Assembly (NCBI GenBank): GCA_000830295.1
Contig: CP010425.1
Location: 420,884-484,883 of the forward strand
DNA: 64,000 bases
Direction of reading: 5' to 3'
DNA from: an archaeon GW2011_AR15
GTDB lineage: Archaea > Nanobdellota > Nanobdellia > Woesearchaeales > GW2011-AR15
Shown: one piece after another, positions 3,633 to 34,181 of the stretch
Layout: the number at the start of each line of letters is the position of its first letter
How positions within the stretch are numbered: position 1 is the stretch's first letter
Position numbers and translations under genes: made by a program
The notes under the pieces: model-generated
The model's database searches: none
Seen by the model: only the letters and a program-made list of their open reading frames with translations
Told to the model about the DNA's origin: nothing

Positions 3633-3634
3633 TT

Positions 3635-4108: not shown

Positions 4109-4109
4109 G

Positions 4110-5403: not shown

Positions 5404-5404
5404 T

Positions 5405-5980: not shown

Positions 5981-5981
5981 T

Positions 5982-6437: not shown

Positions 6438-6441
6438 TTGA

Positions 6442-6996: not shown

Positions 6997-7001
6997 TTTC
7001 T

Positions 7002-7550: not shown

Positions 7551-7551
7551 T

Positions 7552-7944: not shown

Positions 7945-7964
7945 TTTGTTCTCCTGTCTATCAA

Positions 7965-9399: not shown

Positions 9400-9400
9400 T

Positions 9401-9772
9401 TTATTTCTTCAGCCTCTCCTGCCTTTTCTTGTCGTTCAAGTTCAGCTCTGTTATCATTATGTTTGAGACGTGCACTGATTTTCTCAGCTTGGTGCCGTCT
9501 GCCTTCTGGATATCTATCCCTATAACATATACTTTTGAATTTTTTACATCTACTTCTTCAACTTTTCCTGCCCTTCCCCTGAACTGGCCTGCCATTATGG
9601 TGACCTTGTCCCCCTCGGCAACCCTCACAGTCCTTTTCTTGTGCTTCGCGCTAAGGGGTTTTGCAAGGTGCGCCTTAAGGAATCTCCCTTTTACATGGAG
9701 AGGGGCAGCCAGCCTGTATAGCCTCTGCTTTGCCGGCTTCACGCTTGATTTCTGTGTTGTTGAAAATTTCAT
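9401..9772 (-). CDS. rpl24: 50S ribosomal protein uL24
   Basis: 123 aa with the N-terminal PAKQRLYRLAAPLHVKGRFLKAHLAKPLSAKHKKRTVRVAEGD and a KOW motif (DKVTIMAGQFRGRAGKVEEVDVKNSKVYV). It starts after a 59 nt gap from uL14, the largest gap inside the operon. It acts early in 50S assembly in characterised systems. Confidence 0.96.
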   Translation of the reverse strand: MKFSTTQKSSVKPAKQRLYRLAAPLHVKGRFLKAHLAKPLSAKHKKRTVRVAEGDKVTIMAGQFRGRAGKVEEVDVKNSKVYVIGIDIQKADGTKLRKSVHVSNIMITELNLNDKKRQERLKK

Positions 9773-9831
9773 TTTTTTAAAAATACCCGGTGTTTTTGAA
9801 ATTTGAAAATTGTTTTATTTTCATTTTTGCC
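9773..9831 (-). other. Unusually long intergenic gap between uL14 and uL24
   Basis: Other junctions in this operon are overlapping or within about 20 nt. This 59 nt A/T-rich spacer contains a 15-codon ORF (MKIKQFSNFKNTGYF) and a segment resembling the start of uL24 itself (ATGAAAATAAAACAATTTTC beside ATGAAATTTTC). No convincing TATA box at the proper distance is visible. It could be a regulatory spacer, an internal promoter or a scar. Confidence 0.35.
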
Positions 9832-10233
9832 TCATAATATTATGCTTGCAACCTTTGCGACTGCAGGCCACCTTTCTGTTGCCTCTTTTGCAATCGGCCC
9901 CTTGAATATTGTTCCCTTGGGGTTTCCCTTGTCATCCTTCAGCACAACTGCTGCATTGTCTTCAAATTTCACCCTTATGCCGCTGGCTCTCCTGTATTCC
10001 CTTTTCTGCCTCACTATTATTGCATATACCATCTGCTTCATCATGTCCGGCCTTCCCTTCTTGACAGCCGCCCTTACTATATCCCCGACTCCTGCTGCGG
10101 GCTTCCTGTTCTTCACTCCCTTGTAGCCGTATACTGAAATCAGCTCTATCACTTTCGCTCCTGAGTTGTCGCATGTCGGAACATTGGCTCCGACCGGAAG
10201 CCCCCTTGTGACCCTAGCCCTTACTGCTTTCAT
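9832..10233 (-). CDS. rpl14: 50S ribosomal protein uL14
   Basis: 133 aa: MKAVRARVTRGLPVGANVPTCDNSGAKVIELISVYGYKGVKNRKPAAGVGDIVRAAVKKGRP, where CDNSGAK and the VGD...AAVKKG segment are conserved in uL14. Binds 23S rRNA near the factor-binding site and bridges to 16S. Its start lies inside the last 20 nt of uS17. Confidence 0.97.
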   Translation of the reverse strand: MKAVRARVTRGLPVGANVPTCDNSGAKVIELISVYGYKGVKNRKPAAGVGDIVRAAVKKGRPDMMKQMVYAIIVRQKREYRRASGIRVKFEDNAAVVLKDDKGNPKGTIFKGPIAKEATERWPAVAKVASIIL

Positions 10234-10492
10234 CTTTCAATACCTCTACAACCACGAATTTTTTTGTCTTGCTTATCGGCCTGCACTCTTTTATTATTAC
10301 TGTGTCTCCCTCTTTTGCGTCCATCTCAGGAGGGTTGTGCGCTTTCACCTTGCTCCTCTTGTCATGGTAACGCTCGAATTTCGGGACATATACTCTCCTG
10401 TTCCATTCTACTGTGACAGTCTTCTGGGCCTTGCTGCTTACAACCTTGCCCTTGAATGTCCTTCCTCTTGTTTTCAGTGTGGTTTTTTTCAT
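10214..10492 (-). CDS. rps17: 30S ribosomal protein uS17
   Basis: OB-fold 16S-binding protein. Core residues RTFKGKVVSSKAQKTVTVEWNRRVYVPKFERYHDKRSKVKAHNPPEMDAKEGDTVIIKECRPISKTKKFVVVEVL match uS17. ATG at 10492 is chosen, 2 nt after the upstream TGA; an in-frame GTG at 10501 would overlap the rnp1 stop and add three residues. Confidence 0.95.
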   Translation of the reverse strand: MKKTTLKTRGRTFKGKVVSSKAQKTVTVEWNRRVYVPKFERYHDKRSKVKAHNPPEMDAKEGDTVIIKECRPISKTKKFVVVEVLKDESSKG

Positions 10493-10494
10493 TT

Positions 10495-10716
10495 TCAGCA
10501 CTCTTTGATCCTGTCCTCAGGCCTTTTTGCTATTTTTTCTCCTTCGATTGTTTTTCCGTTGATTTTGATTTTTGATGTTTTCTTGATGAATTTTTTTATC
10601 TTGTTTTTTGTCTCCAAATGAAGCATGTTTTTTGTTTCATTGACGATTGTTCCCTTGTGCGTCTTTCCGCTGCTTTCTGTTATCTCCGCCTCCTTCCCTA
10701 TCAGCTCTTCTTTCAT
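10495..10716 (-). CDS. rnp1: RNase P protein component 1 (Rpp29/Pop4)
   Basis: 73 aa: MKEELIGKEAEITESSGKTHKGTIVNETKNMLHLETKNKIKKFIKKTSKIKINGKTIEG, a compact Sm-like barrel typical of Rpp29, which partners the catalytic RNase P RNA in tRNA 5' maturation. ATG at 10716 overlaps the SUI1 stop by 4 nt; a longer in-frame reading to 10827 is just antisense-free read-through inside SUI1 with no conservation. Its location between uL29/SUI1 and uS17 is the standard archaeal one. Confidence 0.92.
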   Translation of the reverse strand: MKEELIGKEAEITESSGKTHKGTIVNETKNMLHLETKNKIKKFIKKTSKIKINGKTIEGEKIAKRPEDRIKEC

Positions 10717-11015
10717 CTGACCCTGATAGTCTCCTCGGGGAAGCCCAGCTTTACCAGCTCCGCAAACACTTTCTGCTTGTGGTCGCCCTGCAGCTCGATT
10801 TTCCCGTCCTTGAACGTGCCTCCGCACGCAAGGGTGTTCTTCAGCTTCTTCGCCAGGTCCTTAAGGTCGATCTGCCTGGTGTCGATGCCTTCAATCATCG
10901 TGTGAAGTTTCCCGAACTTCTTTTTTTCTGTATAAACCGTTATCTCCTGGTTTTCCTTTGCGATGTTTTCGCAAACGCAAAGTTCTTTTGGAAGCCCGCA
11001 TGTGTTACAAATCAT
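10713..11015 (-). CDS. Translation initiation factor SUI1 (aIF1)
   Basis: 100 aa. N-terminal zinc-type knuckle MICNTCGLPKELCVCE, then the SUI1 fold (KKFGKLHTMIEGIDTRQIDLKDLAKKLKNTLACGGTFKDGKIELQGDHKQKVFAELVKLGFPEETI). Helps start-codon selection on the small subunit. The start overlaps uL29 by 4 nt. In this genome, where many transcripts look leaderless, this factor is of special relevance. Confidence 0.96.
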   Translation of the reverse strand: MICNTCGLPKELCVCENIAKENQEITVYTEKKKFGKLHTMIEGIDTRQIDLKDLAKKLKNTLACGGTFKDGKIELQGDHKQKVFAELVKLGFPEETIRVR

Positions 11016-11194
11016 TTTTTCAGCTGTGACATTAGCCTCGCAATATTTTTTTTGACCAGTCCTGCCTGCCCTGGGCTTTTCAGTGTTGTGCCTGTTGCAA
11101 CCTGCGTGTTTATTTTTATCAGTTCTTTCTGCAGCTCCAGCAGCTGCGTTTCAAGTTCCTCACTGCTTTTTCCTTTCAGCTCTTTGGATTTCAT
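11012..11194 (-). CDS. rpl29: 50S ribosomal protein uL29
   Basis: 60 aa two-helix protein: KELKGKSSEELETQLLELQKELIKINTQVATGTTLKSPGQAGLVKKNIARLMSQLKK, with the family LxxLxxEL...NPxxIRxxRK-like layout (here SPGQAGLVKKNIARL). It lies at the polypeptide exit tunnel near uL23. Overlaps uS3 by 4 nt. Confidence 0.95.
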   Translation of the reverse strand: MKSKELKGKSSEELETQLLELQKELIKINTQVATGTTLKSPGQAGLVKKNIARLMSQLKK

Positions 11195-11991
11195 TCTTTA
11201 CCTTCCTTCTTTTTCGCTGCCCTTGCTTTCTTCGGCTTGGCTTCCTTTGATTCAGGCTCTTCTGCCTTTTTCTTTGCTGCTTTTTTCTTTGTCTTATCTT
11301 CTTTTGATGTTTCTTTTGTTTCTTCAACTGCTGTCTTTATCTCTGCTTCTGCCTCTTTTGATTCCTCTTCTTTGACTTCTTCAACTGTTGCCGCGTCCGG
11401 CCTGAACCTGATATCATCAGGCAGCCTTACTCCGGGAGGCATGATGCTTACCTTTATCCCTACAATCCCTGATTTCAGGTTTGCTATTGCATATGCTGTG
11501 TCAACTATTGAGACTGCTGCGTCTCCGCACTTCTTGATATAGCCCTGGTAGAACCTCCATGTCTTTGCCCTTGCGCTCGGTATCTTGCCTGAGATGAGTA
11601 TCTCGATTCCCAGTGCGCCTGCTGCCAGTGCATCCGTCATTACCTTATGGCCTATTCCCTTGAACCTCATTGTGCCGTATTTCTCAAGTGAGATTGCTAT
11701 TTTTTCCGCGATTGCCGCAGCAACTAAATTCTCATTCTGTATCTCTGATATCTCTATCTGCGGGTTCTCCAGGCTGAACTCGTTCTTCAAATCTTCTGTA
11801 AGCTTCTTGATATTTGCGCCCCCGCCCCCTATGACAAGTCCGGGCCTTGACGCGTAGATTACTATTTTTTCTCCCAGCGGAGTCCTCTGTATCTTTGAGT
11901 GGCTCAGCCCGACTCCCTTAAGGTTTTCCCTCAGGTATTCCTTTATCTGGAATTCCTTCTTCATCCTTGATATGAAATCGCGCTCAATCAT
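11191..11991 (-). CDS. rps3: 30S ribosomal protein uS3, with charged C-terminal extension
   Basis: 266 aa. The KH domain contains PGLVIGGGGANIKKLTEDL (GxxG loop); the S3 C-terminal domain has LGIEILISGKIPSARAKTWRFYQGYIKKCGD and VGIKVSIMPPGVRLPDDI. The last ~60 residues are Lys/Glu/Ala rich (KEDKTKKKAAKKKAEEPESKEAKPKKARAAKKKE), a low-complexity tail beyond the folded part. Part of the mRNA entry helicase surface. Confidence 0.96.
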   Translation of the reverse strand: MIERDFISRMKKEFQIKEYLRENLKGVGLSHSKIQRTPLGEKIVIYASRPGLVIGGGGANIKKLTEDLKNEFSLENPQIEISEIQNENLVAAAIAEKIAISLEKYGTMRFKGIGHKVMTDALAAGALGIEILISGKIPSARAKTWRFYQGYIKKCGDAAVSIVDTAYAIANLKSGIVGIKVSIMPPGVRLPDDIRFRPDAATVEEVKEEESKEAEAEIKTAVEETKETSKEDKTKKKAAKKKAEEPESKEAKPKKARAAKKKEGKE

Positions 11992-12500
11992 TTTTTATCC
12001 TTTTTCTCCTGCTTTGCTTCTTTCTTTTTTTCAGCCGGTTTTTCTCCAGCTTTCTTTTCTGCTTTTGGCTTTTTTTCCAGCAGCACGACCTGGATGTGGC
12101 TCCTCTTCATCACAGACCTTTTTTTTCTCCCGTACCTTGCCGGCCTTGATGCCAGGTGTGCGGAAATGTGGTATATTATTAAATATTCGGTGTCGAGGCC
12201 CTTGTCTTTTGCGTTTGATTCTGCGCTCTTGATTATTGAGAGGATCTCCTTTGCCGCGCTTACAGGATATTTCCCTGCAGCCATACCTTTCTTGTGGGCT
12301 GTGTCCTGGTTGTACCTTTTCATAGGCACTGCCCTTTCCAGTCTTGTTACCTGCTCAAGCATCAGCTTTGCCTTTTTTACAGGCATGCCCCTGATCATCC
12401 TTGTTATCTCGACAGACTGCTTCGTGGATATGCCCAGCGAATTCCCGTAGGCCCTTGCCACGTTTTCCCTGTCTGTCTTGAATGCATAATTTACTGTCAT
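11988..12500 (-). CDS. rpl22: 50S ribosomal protein uL22
   Basis: 170 aa of the archaeal L17e/L22 form: ENVARAYGNSLGISTKQSVEITRMIRGMPVKKAKLMLEQV and MAAGKYPVSAAKEILSIIKSAESNAKDKGLDTEYLIIYHISAHLA. A Lys-rich tail (EKKPKAEKKAGEKPAEKKKEAKQEKKDKK) follows. Its beta hairpin lines the exit tunnel in known structures. Confidence 0.96.
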   Translation of the reverse strand: MTVNYAFKTDRENVARAYGNSLGISTKQSVEITRMIRGMPVKKAKLMLEQVTRLERAVPMKRYNQDTAHKKGMAAGKYPVSAAKEILSIIKSAESNAKDKGLDTEYLIIYHISAHLASRPARYGRKKRSVMKRSHIQVVLLEKKPKAEKKAGEKPAEKKKEAKQEKKDKK

Positions 12501-12501
12501 T

Positions 12502-12882
12502 TTATCTCACTGACACCCCTGCGCTGCTCCTTGTTGCCCCTATTCCCGGAGCGCTGTGGTGCACTCCCCTTCTTGTAAGGGCGAACTCGCCAAGGAAATG
12601 GCCGAGCATCTCTCCTGTTATCACAACATCTGCAAATTCCTTCCCGCTGTGGACCTTTATTGTCTTTCCCAGCATTTCCGGGATGACTACCATGTCCCTG
12701 CAGTGGGTCTTTACCCTGTCTCCTGCCCTTATCTTCTCCAGCAGCAGCTTCTGCTGCTCTGTGAAGCCCCTTTCAAGGCTTCTTCTTGCCCTTGAAGGTA
12801 TGTGTTTCATGAAGTCCTTTAGTGAAAGCTTCTGCACTTCCTCTATTGTCATTCCCCTGAATGTGAATTCTTTCTTTGCCAT
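12502..12882 (-). CDS. rps19: 30S ribosomal protein uS19
   Basis: 126 aa: RVKTHCRDMVVIPEMLGKTIKVHSGKEFADVVITGEMLGHFLGEFALTRRGVHHSAPGIGATRSSAGVSVR, a near-textbook uS19 end with the basic tail reaching toward tRNA. N-terminal MAKKEFTFRGMTIEEVQKL is the archaeal extension. It lies 1 nt before uL22. Confidence 0.97.
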   Translation of the reverse strand: MAKKEFTFRGMTIEEVQKLSLKDFMKHIPSRARRSLERGFTEQQKLLLEKIRAGDRVKTHCRDMVVIPEMLGKTIKVHSGKEFADVVITGEMLGHFLGEFALTRRGVHHSAPGIGATRSSAGVSVR

Positions 12883-12884
12883 CT

Positions 12885-13586
12885 TTACCTCTTCATACCC
12901 GTCCTTCTCGGCCTTATCTTACCTACTTTTGCTCCCGGAGGCGCGTTCTTGTCTGCGATTGTAGGCTGGCCTTTCTTGGATGACCTGGATGTACCGAATG
13001 GATGGTCGACTGCGTTCATGGACTGTCCTGATACCTTAGGCCATAGTTTGTTCCTTGCCTTCATATAATGGTATTTCCTTCCTGCTGTCAGGAATGGCTT
13101 TTCTTTTCTTCCTGCTCCTGCAATCATGCCCACTGTTGCCCTGCATTCTGCATGGAATGTTTTTTCCTTCTTTGAAGGAAGCATGATTACCACGTCATTG
13201 TCCTTTTTTGACAGCAGCCTTGCAAAGCATCCGCTTGACCTGACGAACTTTCCCCCGTCTCCCGGCCTGCCTTCTATATTAAATAGTGCCGCTCCTATCG
13301 GGATGTCTTTCAGGTGGAGTGTGTTGCCGTTCTTCGGCTCTACGCTTCCTATGTTTACTGTGTCGCCTGTCCTCATGCCTTCTGCGGCAATGACGTATGT
13401 CTCTTCTCCTGAATCATACTGTATTTTTGCAAGCGGGCTTGAGTGGCCCCTGCATTTTATGAAATCAATAATTTTTCCGAATGATGCCCTTTGCGGGTAT
13501 GATACTTTTGCCTTGTACTTGAAGCTCGGAGCCCTGTATGTCGGGCTTCCCTTTCCCCTTGCCTGCTGTATCAGATTCTTTCCCAT
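12885..13586 (-). CDS. rpl2: 50S ribosomal protein uL2
   Basis: 233 aa: MGKNLIQQARGKGSPTYRAPSFKYK, then KGRPGDGGKFVRSSGCFARLLSKKDNDVVIMLPSKKEKTFHAECRATVGMIAGAGRKEKP and SGQSMNAVDHPFGTS. The GxAVDHPxG loop with conserved His next to the peptidyl-transferase centre is present. Length is normal for archaea. Confidence 0.98.
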   Translation of the reverse strand: MGKNLIQQARGKGSPTYRAPSFKYKAKVSYPQRASFGKIIDFIKCRGHSSPLAKIQYDSGEETYVIAAEGMRTGDTVNIGSVEPKNGNTLHLKDIPIGAALFNIEGRPGDGGKFVRSSGCFARLLSKKDNDVVIMLPSKKEKTFHAECRATVGMIAGAGRKEKPFLTAGRKYHYMKARNKLWPKVSGQSMNAVDHPFGTSRSSKKGQPTIADKNAPPGAKVGKIRPRRTGMKR

Positions 13587-13593
13587 GCTGTTC

Positions 13594-13842
13594 TCACATT
13601 ATCCCCAGTTGTGTTGCCAGGTCGATTGCGGGCGTCTCGTCTGAAAGCTTGACGTATGCCTTTTTCCTTCCTTTAGGGTCAATGGTTGTGTTTACCCTTG
13701 CCACCTTGACTTTATACAGTGATTCGACTGCTTCCTTTACCTGCTTCTTTGTTGCTGACCTCTCGACTATGAATATCAGCGAGTTGTCTGACTCCATCAG
13801 CCTTATTGTCTTCTCTGTTGCAAGCGGGTATTTGATTATCAT
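13594..13842 (-). CDS. rpl23: 50S ribosomal protein uL23
   Basis: 82 aa: IIKYPLATEKTIRLMESDNSLIFIVERSATKKQVKEAVESLYKVKVARVNTTIDPKGRKKAYVKLSDETPAIDLATQLGIM, the archaeal short L23 at the exit-tunnel rim, docking site for SRP. The start overlaps uL4 by 4 nt. Confidence 0.97.
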   Translation of the reverse strand: MIIKYPLATEKTIRLMESDNSLIFIVERSATKKQVKEAVESLYKVKVARVNTTIDPKGRKKAYVKLSDETPAIDLATQLGIM

Positions 13843-14732
13843 TCTTTAACCTTCTTTACTGCAGGCTTTTTTACCGCAGGTTTTTTGGCGGGCTTCGGCT
13901 CTGCCTTTTTCTCTTCTTTTACCGGCGAGTCTGTAAATAGCCTCAGCTCTGCAATTTTCTTTATGCTGCCTTCTGTGTATAATGTAAGCCTGCCCATGTC
14001 TGCTCCCGGGGCAAGCACTTCCGCGTTTAAATTGGCGACTTCAACAACTTCCACTCCCGGGATGTTGCATGCTGCCCCGATAAGGCTGCATTTCCCTGAA
14101 ACAACTATTAGCGGGCCGATTGCCTGCTGGTATGGCCTTCCCCTTCTTTTTGCGTTCCCTGTTTTTGAGGATCTCCTTGCTGCCCTCTCAAGCTCTTTTT
14201 CAAGCCCAAGCTTGGCAAGCATGTCAAGAACCTCTTTTGTTTTCTTCATATCTTCTGCTGAGTTCTCAATAACTAATGGATATTCTGATACTACGTGGCC
14301 CCTTGCTGAGACAAGCTCCTTTATTACAGATGCTGCCATTGCAGACCTTATTGCCTTCCTTCTCTCTTTCCTGTTCAGCTTCCTGTAGATAACTTTCTCT
14401 GCCTGAGGGGGGTGGGCTTCCCTTCCGCCCCTTGTGTTGGGGTTTGTGGCTCCCATCCAGTTGAACCTTGTTCCCCTGTGGCTCATTATTTTTCTTGAAA
14501 CCCTGGATATTCCTATCCCGTATGCGCCCTTATAATGCCTTCTCCTTCTTGATAGCTTTGATGAGTATTTTTTTCCTGCTTCAGGGTCTGTCCCGTATGG
14601 CTGCTTTTTGTGGCTGTGTATTGCCAGGACTGCCCTCTTGATTAAGTCATCCCTTACAGGCTCCTTAAACTGGCTTGGCAAATCTATGTTCCCTTTGCCT
14701 TCCCCTGCTTTTGTTTTGAGTATCGCTTTCAT
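13839..14732 (-). CDS. rpl4: 50S ribosomal protein uL4
   Basis: 297 aa with the archaeal L4 signatures KYSSKLSRRRRHYKGAYGIGISRVSRKIM and MGATNPNTRGGREAHPPQAEKVIYRKLNRKERRKAIRSAMAA. The tail holds a Lys-Pro-Ala-Val repeat (KKPAVKKPAVKK). L4 reaches into the tunnel; in bacteria it also autoregulates its operon through the leader RNA, which makes the structured leader at 15763-15779 of interest. Confidence 0.97.
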   Translation of the reverse strand: MKAILKTKAGEGKGNIDLPSQFKEPVRDDLIKRAVLAIHSHKKQPYGTDPEAGKKYSSKLSRRRRHYKGAYGIGISRVSRKIMSHRGTRFNWMGATNPNTRGGREAHPPQAEKVIYRKLNRKERRKAIRSAMAASVIKELVSARGHVVSEYPLVIENSAEDMKKTKEVLDMLAKLGLEKELERAARRSSKTGNAKRRGRPYQQAIGPLIVVSGKCSLIGAACNIPGVEVVEVANLNAEVLAPGADMGRLTLYTEGSIKKIAELRLFTDSPVKEEKKAEPKPAKKPAVKKPAVKKVKE

Positions 14733-14733
14733 A

Positions 14734-15714
14734 TTATATTCCCTGCATCTCGTGCAGGCTTATTTTTTCTATTGTCGGAAGAGACTGCTTCTTGTTGGAC
14801 CTTACTGCCAGCTGCATGACCACAAGGCGCTTCTTTGCCCCTGCAACCCCGCCCTTGACTAAGGCTGCTGCGGTCTTCACATTGCCGTATCTTATTATGC
14901 CGCCCTTGAATTTTATCTCCTCGGGCTTTACTATTTTGAATAGCTGCTTGTTGTATTCTGTCCTCTGGTGGTAGCCCATCTTTCCTGCATGCGCGACCCT
15001 CCACATTACCTGGCCCTGGCCTCTCCATGCTCCCAGTGATCCCGGGTTCCTTATGGATTTCTCGGACTTGGCCTGCCTTATGTGGATGCCGAACCTCTTT
15101 AGCGGGCCCTGGAACCCTTTCCCTTTTGTGAATGATTTCAGGTCCAGCATGGTGCCGTCTGCAAATACAGAATCTATTGATATCTCCTTTCCTATGTTGC
15201 TTTTTACAAATTCAATCTTGTCTTTCACTTCAGTGCCGCCTATGCCGATTTCCGCCATGTCGGGCATTTTCTTTCCTATGCCTGTTGCTGCAGGCTGTGA
15301 ATATACTAACACCCTTGCATCGTCGTATTCCTCAGGGTTGATTTTCTCCAAAGTGTGCGCTTTCTTTGGCAGGCTCATTCTTTTCTCCAGATTCTTGTCT
15401 TTTGACGCCAGGATTATTTCTGTCTTCAGCTTCAGGTCTACGCCGTCTTTCTTGTATAGTCTCAGAGAAGCAATCTTTACAGGGGGGCACTCGATTATTG
15501 TCACAGGGAATGAGACTTCCTGTCCTTTAAGGTGGGAATGCTTGCTGGTCTCTGTTGTCTGGACATGCGTCATACCTGCCTTGTATCCTAAGAAGCCTGT
15601 CAGCTTTACATCCTTTGATTCTGCATAGGACCTGATCCTCGGAGTGCTTCTCTTAGACCTGACTCTAGGCCAGAACTGCATTGACCCTGCTCTTGGTTTT
15701 CTTACTGTTGGCAT
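14734..15714 (-). CDS. rpl3: 50S ribosomal protein uL3
   Basis: First gene of the operon, 326 aa. Archaeal L3 markers: RAGSMQFWPRVRSKRSTPRIRSY, LTGFLGYKAGMTHV, and FTKGKGFQGPLKRFGI...GSLGAWRGQGQVMWRVAHAGKMGYHQRTEYNK. The ATG at 15714 follows a leader of about 110 nt counted from the TATA box at 15846-15853. Confidence 0.97.
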   Translation of the reverse strand: MPTVRKPRAGSMQFWPRVRSKRSTPRIRSYAESKDVKLTGFLGYKAGMTHVQTTETSKHSHLKGQEVSFPVTIIECPPVKIASLRLYKKDGVDLKLKTEIILASKDKNLEKRMSLPKKAHTLEKINPEEYDDARVLVYSQPAATGIGKKMPDMAEIGIGGTEVKDKIEFVKSNIGKEISIDSVFADGTMLDLKSFTKGKGFQGPLKRFGIHIRQAKSEKSIRNPGSLGAWRGQGQVMWRVAHAGKMGYHQRTEYNKQLFKIVKPEEIKFKGGIIRYGNVKTAAALVKGGVAGAKKRLVVMQLAVRSNKKQSLPTIEKISLHEMQGI

Positions 15715-15936: not shown

Positions 15937-16278
15937 TTATTTATCAAAAACTGATTTAAGCTTGTTCTCAATAACAATTTTAGTATCTCCTTGCGTAATT
16001 ATAACATTATTATTTATTATTATCTCAATTGGTTTCTTAGTTTTTGACTTTGTTTTTTCAAAGAATCGAATAATATAATGTGCTACTAACTCACTAGCTA
16101 CACCAACACCAATAACAAAAATCAGATTAGTAGCTACTTCTTTAAATTTAAGGAAGCTTTCTTGAATTCTACCATAAACACGTAAATTTTCTATTGAGTT
16201 AAGGTTTTCAACTAATTCACTTACTCCAAAATCATCTACCCCCCCAATCCTAACGTCTATTTCTCCAATCATTTTCAA
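15937..16278 (-). CDS. Small protein with one predicted membrane helix, unknown
   Basis: 113 aa, not recognised. Residues ~1-45 are soluble (IGEIDVRIGGVDDFGVSELVENLNSIENLRVYGRIQES), followed by a hydrophobic stretch NLIFVIGVGVASELVAHYII that may span or lie on the membrane, then a Lys-rich link and a beta-like tail (IEIIINNNVIITQGDTKIVIENKLK). It lies 27 nt after the methyltransferase-nuclease gene on the same strand, so probably shares its transcript. AT-rich like the rest of the island. The co-location hints at a membrane-linked accessory of a modification or defence system; no function is assigned. Confidence 0.6.
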   Translation of the reverse strand: MKMIGEIDVRIGGVDDFGVSELVENLNSIENLRVYGRIQESFLKFKEVATNLIFVIGVGVASELVAHYIIRFFEKTKSKTKKPIEIIINNNVIITQGDTKIVIENKLKSVFDK

Positions 16279-16305
16279 ATGCTTTTAATTTATATCAAAA
16301 ATAAT

Positions 16306-17511
16306 TTATTCTTCTACTTTTCCATCTATTAACTCCTGGACTGTCCTTAGAATAATAGTAATTCCTTTTTGATTTTTAACTCTAGCTACTTCTTCATATG
16401 CTCCCTTTGCAAATGAAAAAGCGACTATATATCCTTTCTTTTTATGGACTCTGTCCATAGCTGGTTGAAAATTATCTATAACATTCCGTCCTACACCTTC
16501 GCTTTGTTTAACCTGTATAGGATAACCTCCAGATATTTGAGGAGTAACCCCATCTATTCCCATATCTCCTGATTTTGTTCCACTAACATTGCCAAGAAAT
16601 TTATCAACAACAACCCAATTTTGAAAATCAAAGGGGTTTAACTTCTGAACATATTTTAAATCTACTTTCCCTTTGATAATTTGTGGGCTTACTCCCAAAT
16701 CTTGCCTTAATCTTCTTGCCATAACTTTACAGGCAGTGGGACTTATATCAATACCAATCCACCTTCTTTTAAGTTTTTGAGATACAACTAAAGTGGTTCC
16801 ACAACCACAAAAAGGGTCTAAAACTATACTACCTTCATTTGAAGAGGCTTTAATTATTCTTTTTAATAATGGTTCTGGTTTTTGCGTTGGAAACATTTGT
16901 TTTATTGGTGGAACTCTACCAATATCCCATACATCATCCATTGGAACCCCCTCAGAGTCTTCTTTTGACATTTTGGCAGGAATTCTTTTACCATTATCAT
17001 CATAACCTGAAATTATTTTTGCATTTCCAAATCGCTTTAAGGTTGATTCTGACCTTTCCATAAACATCTTATTGAATACCCTTTTGTCATTATCTGTCTT
17101 TGAATAGAATAAGAGGACATCATGATTTCGTTGAAATTGTTGCCATCCTCCCGACCATTTTCTATAATGCCATATTATCTCATTTCTAAAATTATTTTCT
17201 CCAAAAATATTATCCATTAATATTCTTAGATGTGCGTCGGCGTGCCAATCACAATGCAAATATATACTACCTGTTTTTTTAAGGATTCTATTACATTCCC
17301 TTAATCTTGGCTCCATCCATGTTATATAGTGCTCTATTCCCCCTTGCCATCGGTCTTGAAATGCTCTAAGTTCAGCACCATCTTTCCATATAACTTCATA
17401 ATGTCTATTAGAGAAGAAAGGTGGGTCTAAATAAATTAAGTCAACGCTTTCACTTGGAAATTTGCTTAATATCTCTAAGTTATCTCCTTCATAAATAGCA
17501 TTTACTTCCAT
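16306..17511 (-). CDS. Beta-class DNA methyltransferase fused to Mrr-like nuclease domain
   Basis: 401 aa from ATG at 17511. Methyltransferase part: DPPF at residues 29-32 (catalytic motif IV), then a target-recognition stretch, then DPFCGCGTTL at ~232-241 (SAM-binding motif I); the IV-to-I order marks the beta class of N4-cytosine/N6-adenine enzymes. After ~290 comes a second domain, LNPFDFQNWVV...SGDMGIDGVTP...YPIQVKQSE, with Asp ~320 and QVK 333-335 matching the D...QxK active site of Mrr-type PD-(D/E)xK nucleases. A single chain may thus both modify and cut. The start at 17511 is supported by TTTATATAA at 17535-17543, about 28 nt upstream (leaderless). An extra 20 in-frame codons upstream (TTG/GTG-type start) are rejected. 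Confidence 0.85.
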   Translation of the reverse strand: MEVNAIYEGDNLEILSKFPSESVDLIYLDPPFFSNRHYEVIWKDGAELRAFQDRWQGGIEHYITWMEPRLRECNRILKKTGSIYLHCDWHADAHLRILMDNIFGENNFRNEIIWHYRKWSGGWQQFQRNHDVLLFYSKTDNDKRVFNKMFMERSESTLKRFGNAKIISGYDDNGKRIPAKMSKEDSEGVPMDDVWDIGRVPPIKQMFPTQKPEPLLKRIIKASSNEGSIVLDPFCGCGTTLVVSQKLKRRWIGIDISPTACKVMARRLRQDLGVSPQIIKGKVDLKYVQKLNPFDFQNWVVVDKFLGNVSGTKSGDMGIDGVTPQISGGYPIQVKQSEGVGRNVIDNFQPAMDRVHKKKGYIVAFSFAKGAYEEVARVKNQKGITIILRTVQELIDGKVEE

Positions 17512-17533
17512 TAATGTATTCGTTATCGTCTTA

Positions 17534-17585
17534 GTTATATAAATTTTTTCAAAAATGAACGGGAGCAACACAAAATTTATATTAA
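17534..17585. promoter_or_regulatory. Divergent promoters of the two island methyltransferase genes
   Basis: Minus strand: TTTATATAA at 17535-17543, centred 28 nt from the ATG at 17511. Plus strand: TTTATATTA at 17577-17585, centred 19 nt before ATG 17600 and 37 nt before an in-frame ATG at 17618. The plus-strand spacing would fit a start at 17618 with a short leader. Confidence 0.45.
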
Positions 17586-17599
17586 ATTCCTACTAGATT

Positions 17600-18502
17600 A
17601 TGTTCAAAATAAAGAAAATGGAAGAAATTATCTCACAATTGCCCAAATCTAGAGTGAAAATAGTCTCAAAAAATAAAACTTCTCATGTTTTGGTTAATGG
17701 AAATTCACTAAAATTAATGAAAAATATGCCGGAGGAAAGTATACACTTGATAATAACGGACCCTCCATATAACATTGGATTGGATTATGGAGATGAGTAT
17801 AATGACAATAAGTCTAAAAAGGAATATTACCGGTGGTGTGAGGAATGGTTAACTGAATGCGCAAGAATTCTACATAAGGAGGGAAGTTTTTATCTGATCA
17901 GTTACCCTGAGATAAATGCCAGATTACTACCATTTATTGAAGATAATTTAAAATTAAATTTTCAGAGATGGATAACTTGGCATTATCCAACCAATATTGG
18001 ACACTCAAACAAGAATTACACAAGAAGTCATAGGTCAATACTATTTTTTACAAAATCAAGAAAATATGTTTTTAACAGAGAAAAGGTGTTACAGGCCTAT
18101 AAAAATCCTGAGGTTGGTAAAATCAAAGATAAAATCAGAGAGGGTTCTATAGGAAGGGCCGCATATGATTATCTTGAGAACAAAGATGTTCTAGAAATGC
18201 AGGAATTAGAGAAACTGCAGGAAAGATATTATGATATTCAAAAGATAAATCTCCTAAAAAATGTATCAAAAGATAGGGTTGGATCACTAAAAAAAGGAGA
18301 CAAGGACCACCATCCATGCCAATTACCATTACCACTATTGGAGAGGCTTGTTAAGGTTAGCAGCAAAGAAAAACAAATTTTATTTGACCCATTTGCTGGA
18401 ACATTTACACTCGCAAAAATTGCTTCTGATTTAGAAAGAAATTCAATAGGGATAGAGCAAAACCGATATTTTGTGAAGCTGGGAAGAGAGAGATTAGAAT
18501 GA
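17600..18502 (+). CDS. Beta-class DNA methyltransferase (N4-C or N6-A)
   Basis: 300 aa. DPPYNIG at residues 54-60 is motif IV, and DPFAGTFTLAKIASDLERNSIGIEQN at ~263-288 is motif I plus the following acidic strand; again IV before I. The middle part (IGHSNKNYTRSHRSILFFTKSRKYVFNREKV...KKGDKDHHPCQLPLPLLERL) resembles Type II/III modification enzymes that methylate adenine or cytosine N4. Sequence recognised is unknown. M7 (17618) may be the true start given the TATA spacing. Stop overlaps the DGQHR gene start by 4 nt. AT-rich codon use, unlike the ribosomal genes next door. Confidence 0.85.
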   Translation: MFKIKKMEEIISQLPKSRVKIVSKNKTSHVLVNGNSLKLMKNMPEESIHLIITDPPYNIGLDYGDEYNDNKSKKEYYRWCEEWLTECARILHKEGSFYLISYPEINARLLPFIEDNLKLNFQRWITWHYPTNIGHSNKNYTRSHRSILFFTKSRKYVFNREKVLQAYKNPEVGKIKDKIREGSIGRAAYDYLENKDVLEMQELEKLQERYYDIQKINLLKNVSKDRVGSLKKGDKDHHPCQLPLPLLERLVKVSSKEKQILFDPFAGTFTLAKIASDLERNSIGIEQNRYFVKLGRERLE

Positions 18503-20265
18503 AACAAAAATATTCAGCTAATGATGAGTTAAAAACCTTTGCTCAAAATCTTGGATTTAAAATATTTTTATTTGATGATATTATTACACTTGGCCCAGAA
18601 ATTAAACTTAGAGAACAAAGCAAAAGCTGTGAAATAGATGCTATTTTGATATATGAGAATTTAATTATTTTAGTTGGTATAACTAAAGGGGATTCTACAG
18701 GAACGAAAAAAGAAATAAACAAGTTTTTTGAAAGATTGGATAAAGTATATTATACAAAAGATATGAAGTTAAATTTAGAAATAAACACTTCAAATAAAGA
18801 GGCAATTAAAAAAAATATAATTAAGGCGAATATTTTGTATGAAGAACTTGAAAAAAATATTAAAGAAATTGAAAAAAATTATGAGCCAAAATTAACTAAG
18901 CTTTTTTTCTGCCCGAGACATAGTCTAGATGAATTAAAATTAAGAGATAGAAGCTCCTCTGGTGAATATATTATAGACAAAGATGTGAATGGGTATTTTA
19001 TTGCGGTTGTAGACAGGTTAAACACAAAAGTTCTTTTTAATGATTTTATGTATTTTTTAAATATAAAAAAAGTGGATTTGGAAAAAAAATCACCATCCAA
19101 AACAAAGAAACCCGGAAAAACATCACCTTACAGTCATGTAAGCAGGATGGAACTTGAGAAAGATAAAAGTATAATGTATTCATTTGCGGTTAAAGTAGAA
19201 GAAATAGTAGATTTTATCACTGTTCTAAGAGTATCACAAAAATATAATAAGAAAGGGTTCCAAAGGATGATAAAGAAGAAAAGATTAGATAAAATTAATG
19301 ATGGGTACCTAAATGAAAATGAAACATTTCCAAATAATGTTATTTTGACTCTAAACCCAAAAATATACCTAAATGAAAATGAGTTCTATGATAGAAATGA
19401 AAATGAGTTTAGATTTCTCGATGAGTTTAATTCATTGTATGTGATTGATGGTCAGCATAGAATTTTTTCCTTTATTAAAGGGGAAAAATTGGATAGGCCT
19501 GTGTTAATTTCTTTAATTTTCTTTAAAACTGGAAATGATGATGAGAAAGCACTCAGTATGGATAGAATGTTTTATGAAATAAATAAAAAACAAGAAAAAA
19601 TTGATCCGAATTTAAGTTTCATTCTTAAGGCGAGGATTGATCAAGATTCCAATGAAAATTTCTGGTATGGTGTGTTTGATAAGTTAAAAGAAGATATATT
19701 GGGCAATTCTTATTCTTTTAAAGAAACAACAATTAGAGATAAAGAGAAAAAAAGTATAGTGAGCCTAATAACGTACGGTGGTGTATTCGCACTAAATGAT
19801 ACAAAAAAGAAAAAAGGAATAGAGCTGTTTGGTCTCAAAAAATTTTATTCAGAAGAAAAACAAAAGAATATAGAGTTTGTTATTTGTTTTTTAAACAATT
19901 ATTTCAAAATTATAGCTAAAGTTCTGAATAAACAAAATATAGATGAAAAAAAATTAACTGTAAGAGATATAGGTGCACTTTTGAGATTAATTAAACATTT
20001 CTTATTGTCTAAAAAAGAAGAATTAAAACTTTTAGGAGAAGTTAAAAATATAATAAAAAATGAAGAAAATAAAGATCTTATCAACTATTTAGAAAAAATA
20101 TTGAACTATATACCATTCAAGGAGGTAGTAATGTTAGAGTATGGGTCAAGTAAGTGGGCAGCAATAGAAGGATATATGCTTAAAAAAATTAATGATATTG
20201 ATCAACGTTTTGGCAATAAAATTTTGCTCTCAAAAAAAGGACTTGAAGTATATAACCAAATATAA
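18499..20265 (+). CDS. DGQHR-domain protein with N-terminal nuclease-like region
   Basis: 588 aa. The motif VIDGQHRIFSF sits at residues ~315-325 (DGQHR at 317-321), the signature of the DndB/DpdB-type family related to ParB/sulfiredoxin folds; downstream MDRMFYEINKKQEKIDPNLSFILKAR is also typical. In the N-terminal ~100 residues, CEIDAILIYENLIILVGITKGDS has the look of a degenerate PD-(D/E)xK core (E..D...V.ITK). Known relatives regulate or take part in DNA phosphorothioation or 7-deazaguanine modification, and others occur as orphans near methyltransferases, as here. No Dnd or Dpd partner is present in the window. It overlaps the methyltransferase gene by 4 nt, so they are co-expressed. Confidence 0.75.
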   Translation: MKQKYSANDELKTFAQNLGFKIFLFDDIITLGPEIKLREQSKSCEIDAILIYENLIILVGITKGDSTGTKKEINKFFERLDKVYYTKDMKLNLEINTSNKEAIKKNIIKANILYEELEKNIKEIEKNYEPKLTKLFFCPRHSLDELKLRDRSSSGEYIIDKDVNGYFIAVVDRLNTKVLFNDFMYFLNIKKVDLEKKSPSKTKKPGKTSPYSHVSRMELEKDKSIMYSFAVKVEEIVDFITVLRVSQKYNKKGFQRMIKKKRLDKINDGYLNENETFPNNVILTLNPKIYLNENEFYDRNENEFRFLDEFNSLYVIDGQHRIFSFIKGEKLDRPVLISLIFFKTGNDDEKALSMDRMFYEINKKQEKIDPNLSFILKARIDQDSNENFWYGVFDKLKEDILGNSYSFKETTIRDKEKKSIVSLITYGGVFALNDTKKKKGIELFGLKKFYSEEKQKNIEFVICFLNNYFKIIAKVLNKQNIDEKKLTVRDIGALLRLIKHFLLSKKEELKLLGEVKNIIKNEENKDLINYLEKILNYIPFKEVVMLEYGSSKWAAIEGYMLKKINDIDQRFGNKILLSKKGLEVYNQI

Positions 20266-29358: not shown

Positions 29359-29715
29359 ATGGAGGAAGCAGAGGAGATACTTGGGGAAATAGAGAGGCTG
29401 AAGGAATCGGGGAAAGCTGTCGTCGCCGAGGGCATAAAAGACCTTGCTGCATTAAAAAAGCTCGGCCTGAAAAACATATATATTATCTCCGCGCCCCTAT
29501 TTGAGGTCTGCGAGAAAATCGGGGAAAATAATGATGAGACAGCCATACTTACAGACCTTGACAGGGAAGGGAAGCTGCTTTACTCAAAAATAAAGGAAAA
29601 TCTCACAAGGCTCGGCGTAAAGATTGACGACAGGCTTAGAGAAAGACTGTTCAGGACAAAGCTCGTGCACATGCAGGGCCTTGACACATATATTGAGAAT
29701 TTAATGTCTTCTTAG
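29359..29715 (+). CDS. Small Toprim-domain protein (UPF0292/RNase M5-like)
   Basis: 118 aa. Toprim motifs: VVAEGIKDLAALKKLG (Glu) and AILTDLDREGKLLYSKI (DxD), as in the catalytic fold of primases and topoisomerases. ATG at 29359 is chosen from TATA spacing; a TTG at 29344 is too close to the box. The last 15 nt overlap the convergent surface-protein gene. In vivo substrate not known; expression with the primase suggests a nucleic-acid role. Confidence 0.8.
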   Translation: MEEAEEILGEIERLKESGKAVVAEGIKDLAALKKLGLKNIYIISAPLFEVCEKIGENNDETAILTDLDREGKLLYSKIKENLTRLGVKIDDRLRERLFRTKLVHMQGLDTYIENLMSS

Positions 29716-31377
29716 CCTGACGAGGAGAAGATATGCTGCAATGACAGCAGCCAGCACAATGAAATATTTTGAATAGGCCTTTATTCTGCCTGCGGATGAT
29801 TCATAGACAACACTCCCTGCGGCCTTATTCTGGAAAAGCTTTTCAGAAATCTCCTCTGGCTCCCGCGGCCCGGCTGTTTCTGTTTCCTCTTTCTCTTTTT
29901 TTTCTTTTATCTCCTCAGGGCATGAGGGGTTGTGGCTTATGTCAATCTTTTCAGAAGCATTCAGCCCAATCCCCTCAGCAATCAGGTCGTAGCTGCCCTC
30001 ATTATATTTCCTGTTGCAGTTGTCTTTCAGCAGGATTGGAACTGTAACCGCATATTTCTGGTTGCTGCCATAGAGATTCATCGAGGAGACCTCGCTGACA
30101 GTGTTCTCCCCCTTTACATACAACTTGACTGCATTCTTCAGCGTATCCCCTTTTGTAATATCAAGCTTTATTTTTACAATATCGCCGAAAGCAGCGCCCG
30201 GAGGAATTTCACTTATGGCAATGCTGTCCGTGAGCCGGCTTTCTTCTGCATCCGCCCTGAAGACAACCAACTTCTGTGAAAAAGTATTATTGTTAATGTT
30301 GCTGCAGGCAACCTTCGTCAGGTTGGAATTTATTATAAATGCCTTTTCTGCCCCGCTGATTTTAGGGGTATATGATTTCCTGTTTGTGTTTGATGTAATT
30401 GCCCTCTGTTTTACAGCATCTCCGAAAACATCCTCGACCCAGTATTCAATCTCAAAAGGGAATGTCCTGTTACTGACCCTGTGGGCTATCCCTATGCTCT
30501 CCCCTTCATCATAGACCTGCTTGTCTGTTTCCAGTTCCAGTGTGATATTGCAGTCAGCTTCTTCAGACGGGGAAACTGTTATTCTGCTGCAGAGCCCGTT
30601 GTTGCTGCTGTTTGTATCGTTCGCGGACATATCTACAATCTTTCCGCACACGTCATAGCTTCCGAAACTGCCAAAGACAAACTCTGCAGCCGTAGTTGTA
30701 TATGATTTGAAATCCGTTTCTTTTGTCTCCTCATATATTATTGTGGAGTTTTTTGAGATATTATAATATAATGTTGCGTTTATCTGTTCGCTGAATTCAG
30801 GATAGTCAGTATTCTCCAGCATGAAAAGCCTGTAGTTTATGTTTGTAAAGATATCTTCAGGAAGGAGGAGGCTCAGGACAATATCGGGAATTTCACGGAC
30901 AGGCTCGTGATAAAAAATGTTCTCTGCTCCTGGCGTCGGCTCTGTCTCTATCCATGCTGAGCCAATCAGGGAGAGCGATTTCCCTTTTCCTGTTTCTGCT
31001 GAATATGACATGTTGTCTATTGTACTGTTTTCTTTCTTTATCCTTATCTCATCTGCTGAATTTCCAAGCCCGTTGCCTATTGAATTGTCATCAACGCAGA
31101 GCATAACTGCCGAAAAATTCAGTGTGCTGTCCTGGTCAGCTATTATTATATGTGTGTTTTCCTGGATAATGTACTCACAGGCTGCATTCCCGCAGCAGAT
31201 TATCTGGTCTGTATTGAGATTGTCAGAAAGCTCAAGCCCGCTCATGTTGTAGCTTTCATTTGTATAGAGTTCAATCCATTCATTCCCGTCTTCAGGATTG
31301 TACATGACCTCTGAAATGTAAATGGCCGAGGCAGCATCAAGGCATACAAAGAGCAATATAATGTAGCACAGTTTCAT
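29701..31377 (-). CDS. Secreted, membrane-anchored protein with lamin-tail domain
   Basis: 558 aa from ATG at 31377, right before a signal peptide (KLCYIILLFVCLDAASA). The mature N-terminus IYISEVMYNPEDGNEWIELYTNESYNMSGLELSDN is a lamin-tail (LTD) domain, extending to GKGKSLSLIGSAWIETEPTPGAEN. The centre has beta-sandwich-like segments rich in N-x-S/T sequons (many possible AglB targets), and a C-terminal helix (YFIVLAAVIAAYLLLVRLRRH) anchors it after a Glu/Lys-rich linker. CTATAAAAT at 31403-31411 lies ~29 nt upstream. Surface function unknown. Confidence 0.8.
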   Translation of the reverse strand: MKLCYIILLFVCLDAASAIYISEVMYNPEDGNEWIELYTNESYNMSGLELSDNLNTDQIICCGNAACEYIIQENTHIIIADQDSTLNFSAVMLCVDDNSIGNGLGNSADEIRIKKENSTIDNMSYSAETGKGKSLSLIGSAWIETEPTPGAENIFYHEPVREIPDIVLSLLLPEDIFTNINYRLFMLENTDYPEFSEQINATLYYNISKNSTIIYEETKETDFKSYTTTAAEFVFGSFGSYDVCGKIVDMSANDTNSSNNGLCSRITVSPSEEADCNITLELETDKQVYDEGESIGIAHRVSNRTFPFEIEYWVEDVFGDAVKQRAITSNTNRKSYTPKISGAEKAFIINSNLTKVACSNINNNTFSQKLVVFRADAEESRLTDSIAISEIPPGAAFGDIVKIKLDITKGDTLKNAVKLYVKGENTVSEVSSMNLYGSNQKYAVTVPILLKDNCNRKYNEGSYDLIAEGIGLNASEKIDISHNPSCPEEIKEKKEKEETETAGPREPEEISEKLFQNKAAGSVVYESSAGRIKAYSKYFIVLAAVIAAYLLLVRLRRH

Positions 31378-31484
31378 GCAGCCTTGCCATAGAAACATCA
31401 TTTTATAGACTGATGCGCATTTTCCGTTGTTTTTCCGCAGGAATAAAAAGCTTTAAAAATATCTGGAGTCTTATTGTGAATAGG

Positions 31485-32081
31485 ATGGGGTTTTTTGACA
31501 ATTTAAAGAAAAGAGATAGTTCTCCTGGTAAAACGCCGGAAAAAGAGGAGTTCAATGAGCTTCCTCCGGCTCCGCCGGGATTAAAAAAGATTGAAGCGGA
31601 GAAGCCTGTGGAAATGCCTGAATATTATGCTGACACAGAGGAGGAAAAAAATGTTTTCACGGATTCGCCTGTGCAGGAGGATGTTGCTGAAAGCAATGCT
31701 GAGATAATAAAGGATGACAGGCCGAAGATCAGTGTTCCCGACAGCCTGCCTGACATTGACATCCCTGTGCCTCCTGATATTGAGGAAATCCCTTTTTTCA
31801 GGAATGCTGCAGTTGCAAAGCCTGCTGCAGAGCTGCCTGAATTCGCAGTAAAGGAAATAAAGAAGGGGCCTGTCTTCGTAAGGACTGATGAATACAGCGG
31901 GATGCTTTCCGGCATAGATTCAATGGAAGGCGTGATGAAGGAGGGGCAGGAAACAGTATACCTGCTGAAGAACCTGAAGAAGAATGCCGATACTGTGCAT
32001 GAGAAATACTTAAATACGCTGGAAGATATACAAAAGAAACTTATGTATGTCGATCATCTCCTGTTTGAATCAATGAAGTGA
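31485..32081 (+). CDS. Proline-rich protein with C-terminal coiled coil, paralogue 1 of 3
   Basis: 198 aa from ATG at 31485 (CTTTAAAAATA about 30 nt upstream). Residues 1-120 are low-complexity, acidic and Pro-rich (PPAPPGLKK, DIDIPVPPDIEEIPFF). The C-terminal ~70 residues VFVRTDEYSGMLSGIDSMEGVMKEGQETVYLLKNLKK...LNTLEDIQKKLMYVDHLLFE match the next two proteins. No membrane helix. No known family recognised; the shared domain looks like a helical, possibly multimerising module. Confidence 0.7.
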   Translation: MGFFDNLKKRDSSPGKTPEKEEFNELPPAPPGLKKIEAEKPVEMPEYYADTEEEKNVFTDSPVQEDVAESNAEIIKDDRPKISVPDSLPDIDIPVPPDIEEIPFFRNAAVAKPAAELPEFAVKEIKKGPVFVRTDEYSGMLSGIDSMEGVMKEGQETVYLLKNLKKNADTVHEKYLNTLEDIQKKLMYVDHLLFESMK

Positions 32082-32314
32082 TGAAAATGGAAAAGGAAAC
32101 TAATGTGTTTGTGAAAATCTCTGAATACAATGACCTGCTTGATGTCATCGCCCTTATCAACGAAAAAGTGAAGGAGGCAAGGGAGATACTTGCAAAGATA
32201 TACGACCTCAAGAACCAGGAGGATGCTGAGCTGGACCACTGGAAAAACTCGCTGGACGATGTTGAGAGAAAGCTGAAATATATCGACCAGGCGCTGTACC
32301 GCCCGAAATACTGA
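32081..32314 (+). CDS. Coiled-coil protein, paralogue 2 of 3
   Basis: 77 aa, consisting of just the shared helical module: VFVKISEYNDLLDVIALINEKVKEAREILAKIYDLKN...LDHWKNSLDDVERKLKYIDQALYR. Aligns without gaps with the C-terminus of the preceding protein (VFVRTDEY / VFVKISEY; KLMYVDHLL / KLKYIDQAL). The start codon overlaps the previous stop (TGATG); a GTG at 32078 is an alternative. Confidence 0.75.
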   Translation: MKMEKETNVFVKISEYNDLLDVIALINEKVKEAREILAKIYDLKNQEDAELDHWKNSLDDVERKLKYIDQALYRPKY

Positions 32315-32316
32315 GA

Positions 32317-32637
32317 ATGGCAGATAAGGATTTTTACGTCGGCATATATGAGCCGGAGGATGTGAAGAGGAATGTTCTTGAAAGCTCAAAAGAGATTGTG
32401 TCCTCAATGCAGTCCTACAGGAACCTTGAGTCAATAAGGAATGCCAAGGTAAAGGAATACGAAAACCTGAGAAAAGTGATGGAAGAGATTGATTACCTTC
32501 TTGCAAAGTTAAAGCTAAAGATGCCGAGGGGTGTGAGAAAATCCCACGGTTCTGTGAAAGACGACTTGTCTCCCGGCGTGAGGAAGCTGGATAAGGAGCT
32601 GGATGAGCTTGAGGACAGGTTCTCCAAAACCGGCTAA
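32317..32637 (+). CDS. Coiled-coil protein, paralogue 3 of 3
   Basis: 106 aa. N-terminal ~65 residues FYVGIYEPEDVKRNVLESSKEIVSSMQSYRNLESIRNAKVKEYENLRKVMEEIDYLLAKLK are a diverged copy of the same helical module; a basic segment (KMPRGVRKSHGSVK) and a second acidic helix follow. Starts 2 nt after the previous stop. The three together look like a multi-subunit complex. Confidence 0.75.
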   Translation: MADKDFYVGIYEPEDVKRNVLESSKEIVSSMQSYRNLESIRNAKVKEYENLRKVMEEIDYLLAKLKLKMPRGVRKSHGSVKDDLSPGVRKLDKELDELEDRFSKTG

Positions 32638-33681: not shown

Positions 33682-33734
33682 TTGCTTTCTTTGAAACCAT
33701 AATCTTTTAATTCATGCTGTCTTACCCGCTATCC

Positions 33735-34181
33735 ATGAAATGCCCATACTGCGGCTCTGAGAGAAGCAAGGTTGTTGACAAGAGAGAGACTGAAGAGGGT
33801 GCGGCAACAAGGAGAAGACGGGAGTGCCTTGAGTGCGAAAAAAGGTACACAACTTATGAGAAGATTGAGACGGTAATCCTTACTGTAAGGAAAAAGAGCG
33901 GGGAGATTCAGGCATTTGACAGGAACAAGCTGAAAACTGGGATAATGAAAGCCTGCGAAAAGCGCCCGATATCCGCAGGGCAGATAGATGATATTGTATC
34001 TGATATTATTTTTCACCTGCGGAACAAGGAGAGCACTGAAATAACCTCGGCGCTGATAGGCAGGCTTGTAATGACACGGCTGAAAAAACTGGATAAGGTT
34101 GCATACATAAGATTCGCCTCTGTATATAAGGATTTCAAGGACCCTGAAGAATTCCAGGATGTTGTCAGCAAAGTGAAATAA
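33735..34181 (+). CDS. nrdR: Transcriptional repressor NrdR
   Basis: 148 aa from ATG at 33735: zinc ribbon MKCPYCGSERSKVVDKRETEEGAATRRRRECLECEKRYTTYEKIE followed by an ATP-cone (TVRKKSGEIQAFDRNKLKTGIMKACEKRPIS...IGRLVMTRLKKLDKVAYIRFASVYKDF). NrdR senses (d)ATP and controls ribonucleotide reductase genes in bacteria; it is sporadic in archaea. Zn Cys pairs and the ATP-cone are intact. No nrd gene lies nearby. Confidence 0.92.
   Translation: MKCPYCGSERSKVVDKRETEEGAATRRRRECLECEKRYTTYEKIETVILTVRKKSGEIQAFDRNKLKTGIMKACEKRPISAGQIDDIVSDIIFHLRNKESTEITSALIGRLVMTRLKKLDKVAYIRFASVYKDFKDPEEFQDVVSKVK

Follow-up and report, generated by a model that had tools for sequence, protein, structure and literature searches.

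The window, that is, the whole 64-kb stretch of DNA that was analyzed, comes from a single-contig genome of 1.16 Mb and contains three tandem genes on the forward strand, here named P1, P2 and P3. P1 (31485..32081) encodes a protein of 198 aa with three parts: a hydrophobic and basic N-terminus, MGFFDNLKKR (31485..31514), which is the putative membrane-touching start; a Pro-rich and acidic arm (31515..31865), presumed to be disordered from its composition; and a C-terminal module (31866..32078), paralogous to P2 and predicted to consist of an extended head and a coiled-coil helix. P2 (32081..32314) encodes a protein of 77 aa which is a bare module, and P3 (32317..32637) encodes a protein of 106 aa with a probable diverged module, a linker and a short C-terminal helix. 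The open reading frames were found as three tandem genes with overlapping or 2-nt junctions, as given in the preliminary description of this DNA: P1 and P2 overlap by 1 nt, with stop and start in TGATG, and a 2-nt gap separates P2 from P3. A TATA-box-like sequence, TTTAAAAATA, is located on the same strand at 31452..31461, 24-33 nt upstream of the P1 start; the count of this motif is not significant (2 in the window vs. 0.66 expected).

According to Pfam and NCBIfam, P1, P2 and P3 of the window show no model above cut-off, and profile searches of the PDB with P2 and P3 gave best E-values of 0.027 and 0.013, neither credible. The earlier statement that no family could be recognized is thus borne out by these databases. 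Pfam searches with 34 P2 and 37 P3 family sequences gave scattered weak matches only, except for C2H2 fingers in two P3 proteins. Matches to eIF3c_N, Med9, MtrG, CdsZ and others were scattered, below cut-off for the window proteins, and were judged to be coiled-coil noise, as were the PDB sequence matches of the P2 and P3 profiles. Foldseek found no match with the P2 model, a result that says little for a lone helix. A search of the literature, judged by titles and abstract openings, found no description of such a trio. Lineage-specific hypothetical families of archaea are a known class in two reports (PMC8204110, PMC9258230), the first of which gives 51 families widespread in Woesearchaeota and Pacearchaeota, mostly without function (compare its module 98). 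The trio would be a new family within a familiar class, the coiled-coil scaffolds, with unusually wide retention, and may already hide among such hypothetical families.

A P2-type match was found in 89 of 99 relatives and in 259 members of a phylum sample of 279 genomes, including genomes of 0.6 and 0.7 Mb, each a single contig, in which the module is kept; the module is therefore probably important to the cell. P3 was found in 51 of 60 relatives, and its profile matches 209 of the 279 phylum genomes and misses 70, although P3 is probably under-counted in other orders because the profile was trained on the window's order only. Within this order, 13 genomes lack a P2 match, and these include all 12 that lack a P3 match; this joint absence could also reflect assembly gaps, since the genes adjoin. 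In a scan of named genome contigs only three close relatives of P2 were found, two of them in Candidatus Woesearchaeota MAGs, and we accordingly take the host to be a DPANN archaeon. Viral contigs, searched with one pattern, gave no relative, and plasmids gave no P2 match.

To describe the gene order, 167 loci were chosen because they carry P2 or its single-copy homologue: 147 belong to the window's order and 20, the better-scoring ones, belong to other orders. All 167 chosen loci have P3 next downstream, and 146 of the 147 same-order loci have P1 ahead of P2, no P1 being found in locus L192; four of 60 loci lacked a match in the first BLAST extraction and were recovered with profiles. Counted from the first possible start codon, the P2-P3 junction is of 10 nt or less in 144/167 loci and the P1-P2 junction in 117/146. 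Inspection by eye covered eight further loci with weak matches, from distant families and including the 0.6- and 0.7-Mb genomes: six show a P3-like protein downstream, while loci L194 and L196 show none beside the module gene. In one of the six, locus L197, the P3-like protein is set off by a gap of roughly 440 nt. Loss of the trio as a set, named earlier as the outcome that would refute the proposal, was looked for and not found, though with these two distant loci lacking a P3-like neighbor. P1, P2 and P3 likely form one complex, though the coupling analysis described below did not show it.

The same description had proposed that the three proteins carry copies of one module. With P2 as query, the C-terminus of P1 in the same genome was matched with an E-value of 4.5e-8, and in many relatives a second match lies directly upstream. 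Profile-profile comparison of P1 C-termini and P2 (57 sequences each) gave 99.7% probability and an E-value of 1.7e-25 over 72 columns. Their likeness is beyond chance, and the sequence comparison makes the P1 C-terminus and P2 certain paralogues. The likeness of P3 is more distant. Small profiles (57 sequences each) gave 55.6% between P1 and P3 over 60 columns, in the register originally proposed, and 60.9% between P2 and P3, where the best local match falls on the P3 C-terminal helix, outside the module. Larger alignments compared with hhalign (313 module sequences against 167 P3 sequences) gave 84% and an E-value of 7e-6 in a gapless alignment of 64 columns, and 71% when P2 sequences alone were used. 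Ungapped offset scans between P2 and P3, P1 and P3, and two pairs of single-copy protein and P3 all peak at offset 0 (z of 2.96-3.80), whereas the control with reversed P3 reached a best z of 2.59. Scans restricted to the helix show a weak peak at 0 (z of 2.2-2.8), and offset 0 ranks third for P2-P3; as this helix-only signal is weak, much of the kinship signal of P3 is carried by the head strand.

The N-terminal part of P3 is then probably a more distant copy of the module, at 84% and resting largely on the head strand. For P3 the original proposal is supported by the gapless alignment and offset, and it is weakened by the small profiles and by the off-module position of the P2-P3 match. Its detail of a shared C-terminal Y-x-D-x-L anchor was not confirmed for P3; the gapless register places EIDYLL of P3 seven columns, or one heptad, before YIDQAL of P2. 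A different explanation is convergence of coiled coils, with P1 and P2 alone related and P3 an unrelated basic partner; the low small-profile scores, the P2-P3 match on the C-terminal helix and the weak helix-only scans fit this explanation. However, the best offset was 0, without gaps, in four of four full-length comparisons, hhalign gave 84%, and the head strand occupies the same place in both proteins, so we consider convergence unlikely.

In other orders a single arm-plus-module gene precedes P3 (20 loci), and for this reason P1 and P2 look like the products of a duplication. An unrooted tree of 311 modules, from which two of the 146 P1 modules were left out, groups 143 of 144 P1 modules with a support of 0.98, the 147 P2 modules together with one P1 (support 0.79), and the single-copy modules (20 of 20, support 0.74). 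Of the 20 other-order proteins, 16 score higher with the P2 profile than with the P1 profile, which points to P2 as the closest to the ancestral rod. The simplest reading of these sequences is a single duplication basal to the window's order, with P2 nearest to the ancestral rod; loss of one copy in the other orders is a possible alternative. Under a single duplication, the ancestral form would have been a two-gene operon of an arm-plus-module gene and P3, and the module gene would have duplicated in the window's order so that P1 retained the arm and P2 became the bare rod. The trio would thus illustrate how duplication can expand a set of two genes to three.

AlphaFold2, with input alignments of eight sequences for P2 and four for P3, modeled P2 as an extended N-terminus followed by one helix at residues 13-73 (32117..32299, forward strand), with a mean pLDDT of 86.3 and a pTM of 0.48. 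P3 was modeled with helices at residues 13-68 (32353..32520) and 86-105 (32572..32631), both on the forward strand, with a mean pLDDT of 75.8 and a pTM of 0.39; the second helix shows the family pattern ELxxLExELxxIExKLxxL. That the module is helical, as first described, agrees with the single long helix predicted in P2 and in the module part of P3. Averaged over the family, hydrophobicity has a period of 3.5 when the P1, P2 and single-copy modules are pooled, and of 3.45 in P3. Couplings within the chain lie at i+3/i+4 (310 of 313 module sequences were used for periodicity and couplings). A helical hairpin is not favored, given one helix per model and no convincing anti-diagonal, the best antiparallel z being 2.4. 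Heptad periodicity over a continuous helix, the criterion for a coiled coil, was found in P2 and P3, and the length and hydrophobic stripe of the module helix indicate that it should pack against others. The module is accordingly predicted to be a coiled-coil subunit, with an extended "FVKI" head and a single uninterrupted helix, some 60 residues long, that shows heptad periodicity.

When a period of 3.5 is imposed, the core falls on columns 19, 23, 26, 30, 33, 37, 40, 44, 47, 51, 54, 58, 61, 65, 68, and 72, identical across all five groups; columns 44 and 47 were excluded from the phase fitting. At core column 47, Glu is found in 147 of 147 P2 proteins (Glu47 in the window, 32219..32221, forward strand) and in 20 of 20 single-copy proteins. 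The same column in P3, Lys44 in the window (32446..32448, forward strand), contains Lys in 139 of 147 same-order proteins, with five Arg, and in 18 of 20 proteins of other orders, with two Glu. P1 has drifted at this column (E 54, K 32, and Q 17 of 146). Opposite charges at one level of P2 and P3 suggest, from the alignments, a parallel and in-register ionic layer; the core is not simply complementary, as P2 and P3 alike have basic residues at column 44. Couplings between the proteins in 146 trios (Neff 142) showed no significant diagonal, with a best z of 2.7 among about 100 offsets. Conserved charged or polar residues in the middle of a heptad hydrophobic core are found in the SNARE zero layer and in other polar layers of coiled coils. 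The trio would resemble the zero layer in having a polar core layer and differ from it in the residues, Glu and Lys.

The N-terminus of P1 and of single-copy proteins shows a short hydrophobic stretch followed by lysines in 143/166 sequences, most commonly M-G-[LFW]-[FL]-...-KKK. This pattern is home-made and permissive, and it is also found in 261 of 949 mechanical open reading frames of at least 200 aa (28%), in 48/147 P2 and in 70/167 P3; it fails in 23 of the 146 P1 proteins, some of them through a wrong start or a contig end. A membrane-peripheral scaffold, suggested in the preliminary description, is possible in view of this difference (143/166 vs. 261/949). Among same-order P1 proteins, 145 have arms of at least 40 residues, with a median length of 137. 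Beyond residue 30, these arms contain 18% Pro and a fraction of 0.19 acidic residues, and they are net acidic in 122/144. In other orders the arms are shorter and close to neutral, and in the f103 genomes they look, by eye, rich in Q, N, and G. A hydrophobic-P-x-hydrophobic-P motif occurs in 106/166 arms vs. 26.5 in shuffles. The P3 linkers are basic, with a median of 27% Lys plus Arg vs. 13% in the background, and net positive in 132/158; the mean net charge of P3 is +7.3 in 56 same-order proteins. In two of 167 P3 proteins, a C2H2 zinc finger lies in the linker, between the module and the C-terminal helix. These two homologues (L045:8517-9074 and L076:3108-3539) come from two different families.

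Our main reading, to which we give a probability of about 0.5, is that the trio would be an intracellular, membrane-peripheral scaffold of hetero-coiled coils in which P3 holds a cargo. It starts from the computed P1-P2 paralogy, the conservation of the set, the predicted heptad helices, the conserved core charges and the composition of the arm and N-terminus; from these we infer complex formation, parallel orientation, membrane contact and cargo. Each subunit would have an extended, strand-like head (VFVKI or FYVGI) that leads into a helix some 60 residues long. The helices would zip up in parallel orientation and matching register (P1 with both P2 and P3), with a Glu(P2)/Lys(P3) layer, buried halfway along the rod, setting register and choice of partner. 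A hetero-coiled coil is quite probable. The hydrophobic and poly-lysine N-terminus of P1 would contact the inner face of the membrane, for which we see an even chance, and its long, mostly acidic Pro-rich arm may serve as a spacer between rod and membrane and as a carrier of binding motifs. The basic linker and C-terminal helix of P3 might bind the cargo, for which nucleic acid (nucleoid or ribosome) would be the most likely kind, though this choice is itself doubtful.

PopZ, the polar organizing protein of Caulobacter, offers the closest comparison for P1. As described in PMC9512792, PopZ has a disordered arm with fractions of 0.29 acidic residues and 0.23 Pro, and it shares with P1 a short N-terminal segment, an acidic Pro-rich disordered arm and a C-terminal helical part. 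This order and composition were found in P1, where the helix is taken from the P2 model; however, the arms of other orders are near neutral. In the same account, PopZ self-oligomerizes from one gene through several helices, whereas the archaeal system has two or three long-helix subunits that are probably paralogues, and the PopZ N-terminus is a client-binding helical region, whereas that of P1 is hydrophobic and poly-Lys. No PopZ match is found in the Pfam and NCBIfam results for P1, P2 and P3 of the window, and PopZ is used here as an analogy of working only. It seems that a core component of these cells, probably a scaffold, has been overlooked, as most sampled phylum genomes carry it and the searched family databases do not recognize it. 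We think it improbable that the trio goes further and is an undescribed core machine of the phylum, that is, a membrane-anchored heteromeric coiled-coil organizer with a Glu/Lys core layer, tethering nucleic acid to the membrane, in the role that scaffolds like PopZ play in bacteria, and duplicated in one order. As a membrane-peripheral scaffold, the trio is a testable candidate for the interior organization of tiny archaeal cells.

The genomic neighborhood changes between loci and orders, so it names no function. Same-order neighbors, counted as clusters in 57 loci, include RNase J (27), PCNA (26), ScpB (23) and gyrase A (19), all lower bounds owing to contig ends and BLAST clustering; the first three were confirmed by Pfam and gyrase A was identified by eye. 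These four clusters have no member in other orders, where TFE (15 of 20 loci, Pfam) and AlaRS (16 of 20, by eye) are found instead. A LeuRS-like gene lies near the module locus in the f103 genomes (by eye). A protein of 193 aa without a Pfam match, encoded in locus L073 at position -6 from P2, was also observed in 22 of the 57 same-order loci, together with ScpB in 22 of 22 and with gyrase A in 18. The gyrase A, ScpB and PCNA neighbors, together with the basic P3 proteins and, as thin support, their two zinc-finger linkers, would suit a tether between membrane and chromosome or a part in nucleoid occlusion, with the P3 linker on DNA and P1 on the membrane. However, the restriction of these clusters to one order argues against it, basic linkers are common, and the P3 model of the window shows no DNA-binding fold; we hold such a tether to be unlikely.

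An accessory scaffold of cell division, alongside FtsZ and SepF, is rather less likely. SepF is the archaeal FtsZ anchor (PMC8178401). The trio resembles SepF (Pfam PF04472) in being small and near-universal in the phylum. The N-terminus of SepF contacts the membrane, as that of P1 may do. SepF, a separate gene, was found in 97 of 100 phylum genomes and so provides a system to help, and the putative membrane-contact N-terminus and scaffold anatomy of the trio would suit such a role. The same presence speaks against the trio simply replacing SepF, a substitution that is ruled out; furthermore, P1-P3 show no match to PF04472 in Pfam, and the SepF match of this genome (G000:C1:803237-803440) lies about 350 kb from the trio.

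A tether of the ribosome or translocon at the membrane, with the basic P3 tail on rRNA and P1 on the membrane, is less likely still. The P3 tail and P1 N-terminus would suit it, and retention of the module in genomes of 0.6-0.7 Mb is what would be expected of translation or secretion parts; however, the ribosomal-protein and SecY cluster of the window lies about 16 kb from the trio (by eye).

The preliminary description had also linked the trio to the cell surface, from the surface protein and glycosyltransferase beside it. According to Pfam, the surface protein (29701-31401) has a lamin-tail domain; it is transcribed away from the trio, across a gap of 83 bp. A lamin-tail protein on the opposite strand lies in the flanks of 26 of the 57 same-order loci, 477 to 6502 bp away, adjoins P1 in 11 of them, and has no cluster member in other orders. 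A surface-linked assembly tied to glycosylation could draw on this neighbor and on the adjacent GT2 gene, but GT2 and DUF2304 genes are cluster members in 3 of the 57 loci, including the window, and in none of the other orders, and the P1 start appears by eye charged and of cytosolic type, with no signal peptide; as the changing context also argues against a glycan or surface role, the link is not supported and we regard this assembly as very improbable.

Further genes of the window were identified by eye. An NrdR-like regulator (33714-34181) lies shortly downstream of the trio and is followed by SufC/SufB/SufD/SufS-like genes; NrdR is better known from bacteria. A long minus-strand run of ribosomal-protein genes (2202-15714) ends in a SecY-like gene and shows an AT skew of about -0.4. 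Beside it, the region 16306-20265 contains two DNA methyltransferase-like genes and a gene for a 588-aa protein with a DGQHR motif, which we take to be DndB-like. The GC content is 30% at 16001-20000 vs. about 45% around it, and the region may represent a mobile module for restriction or modification.
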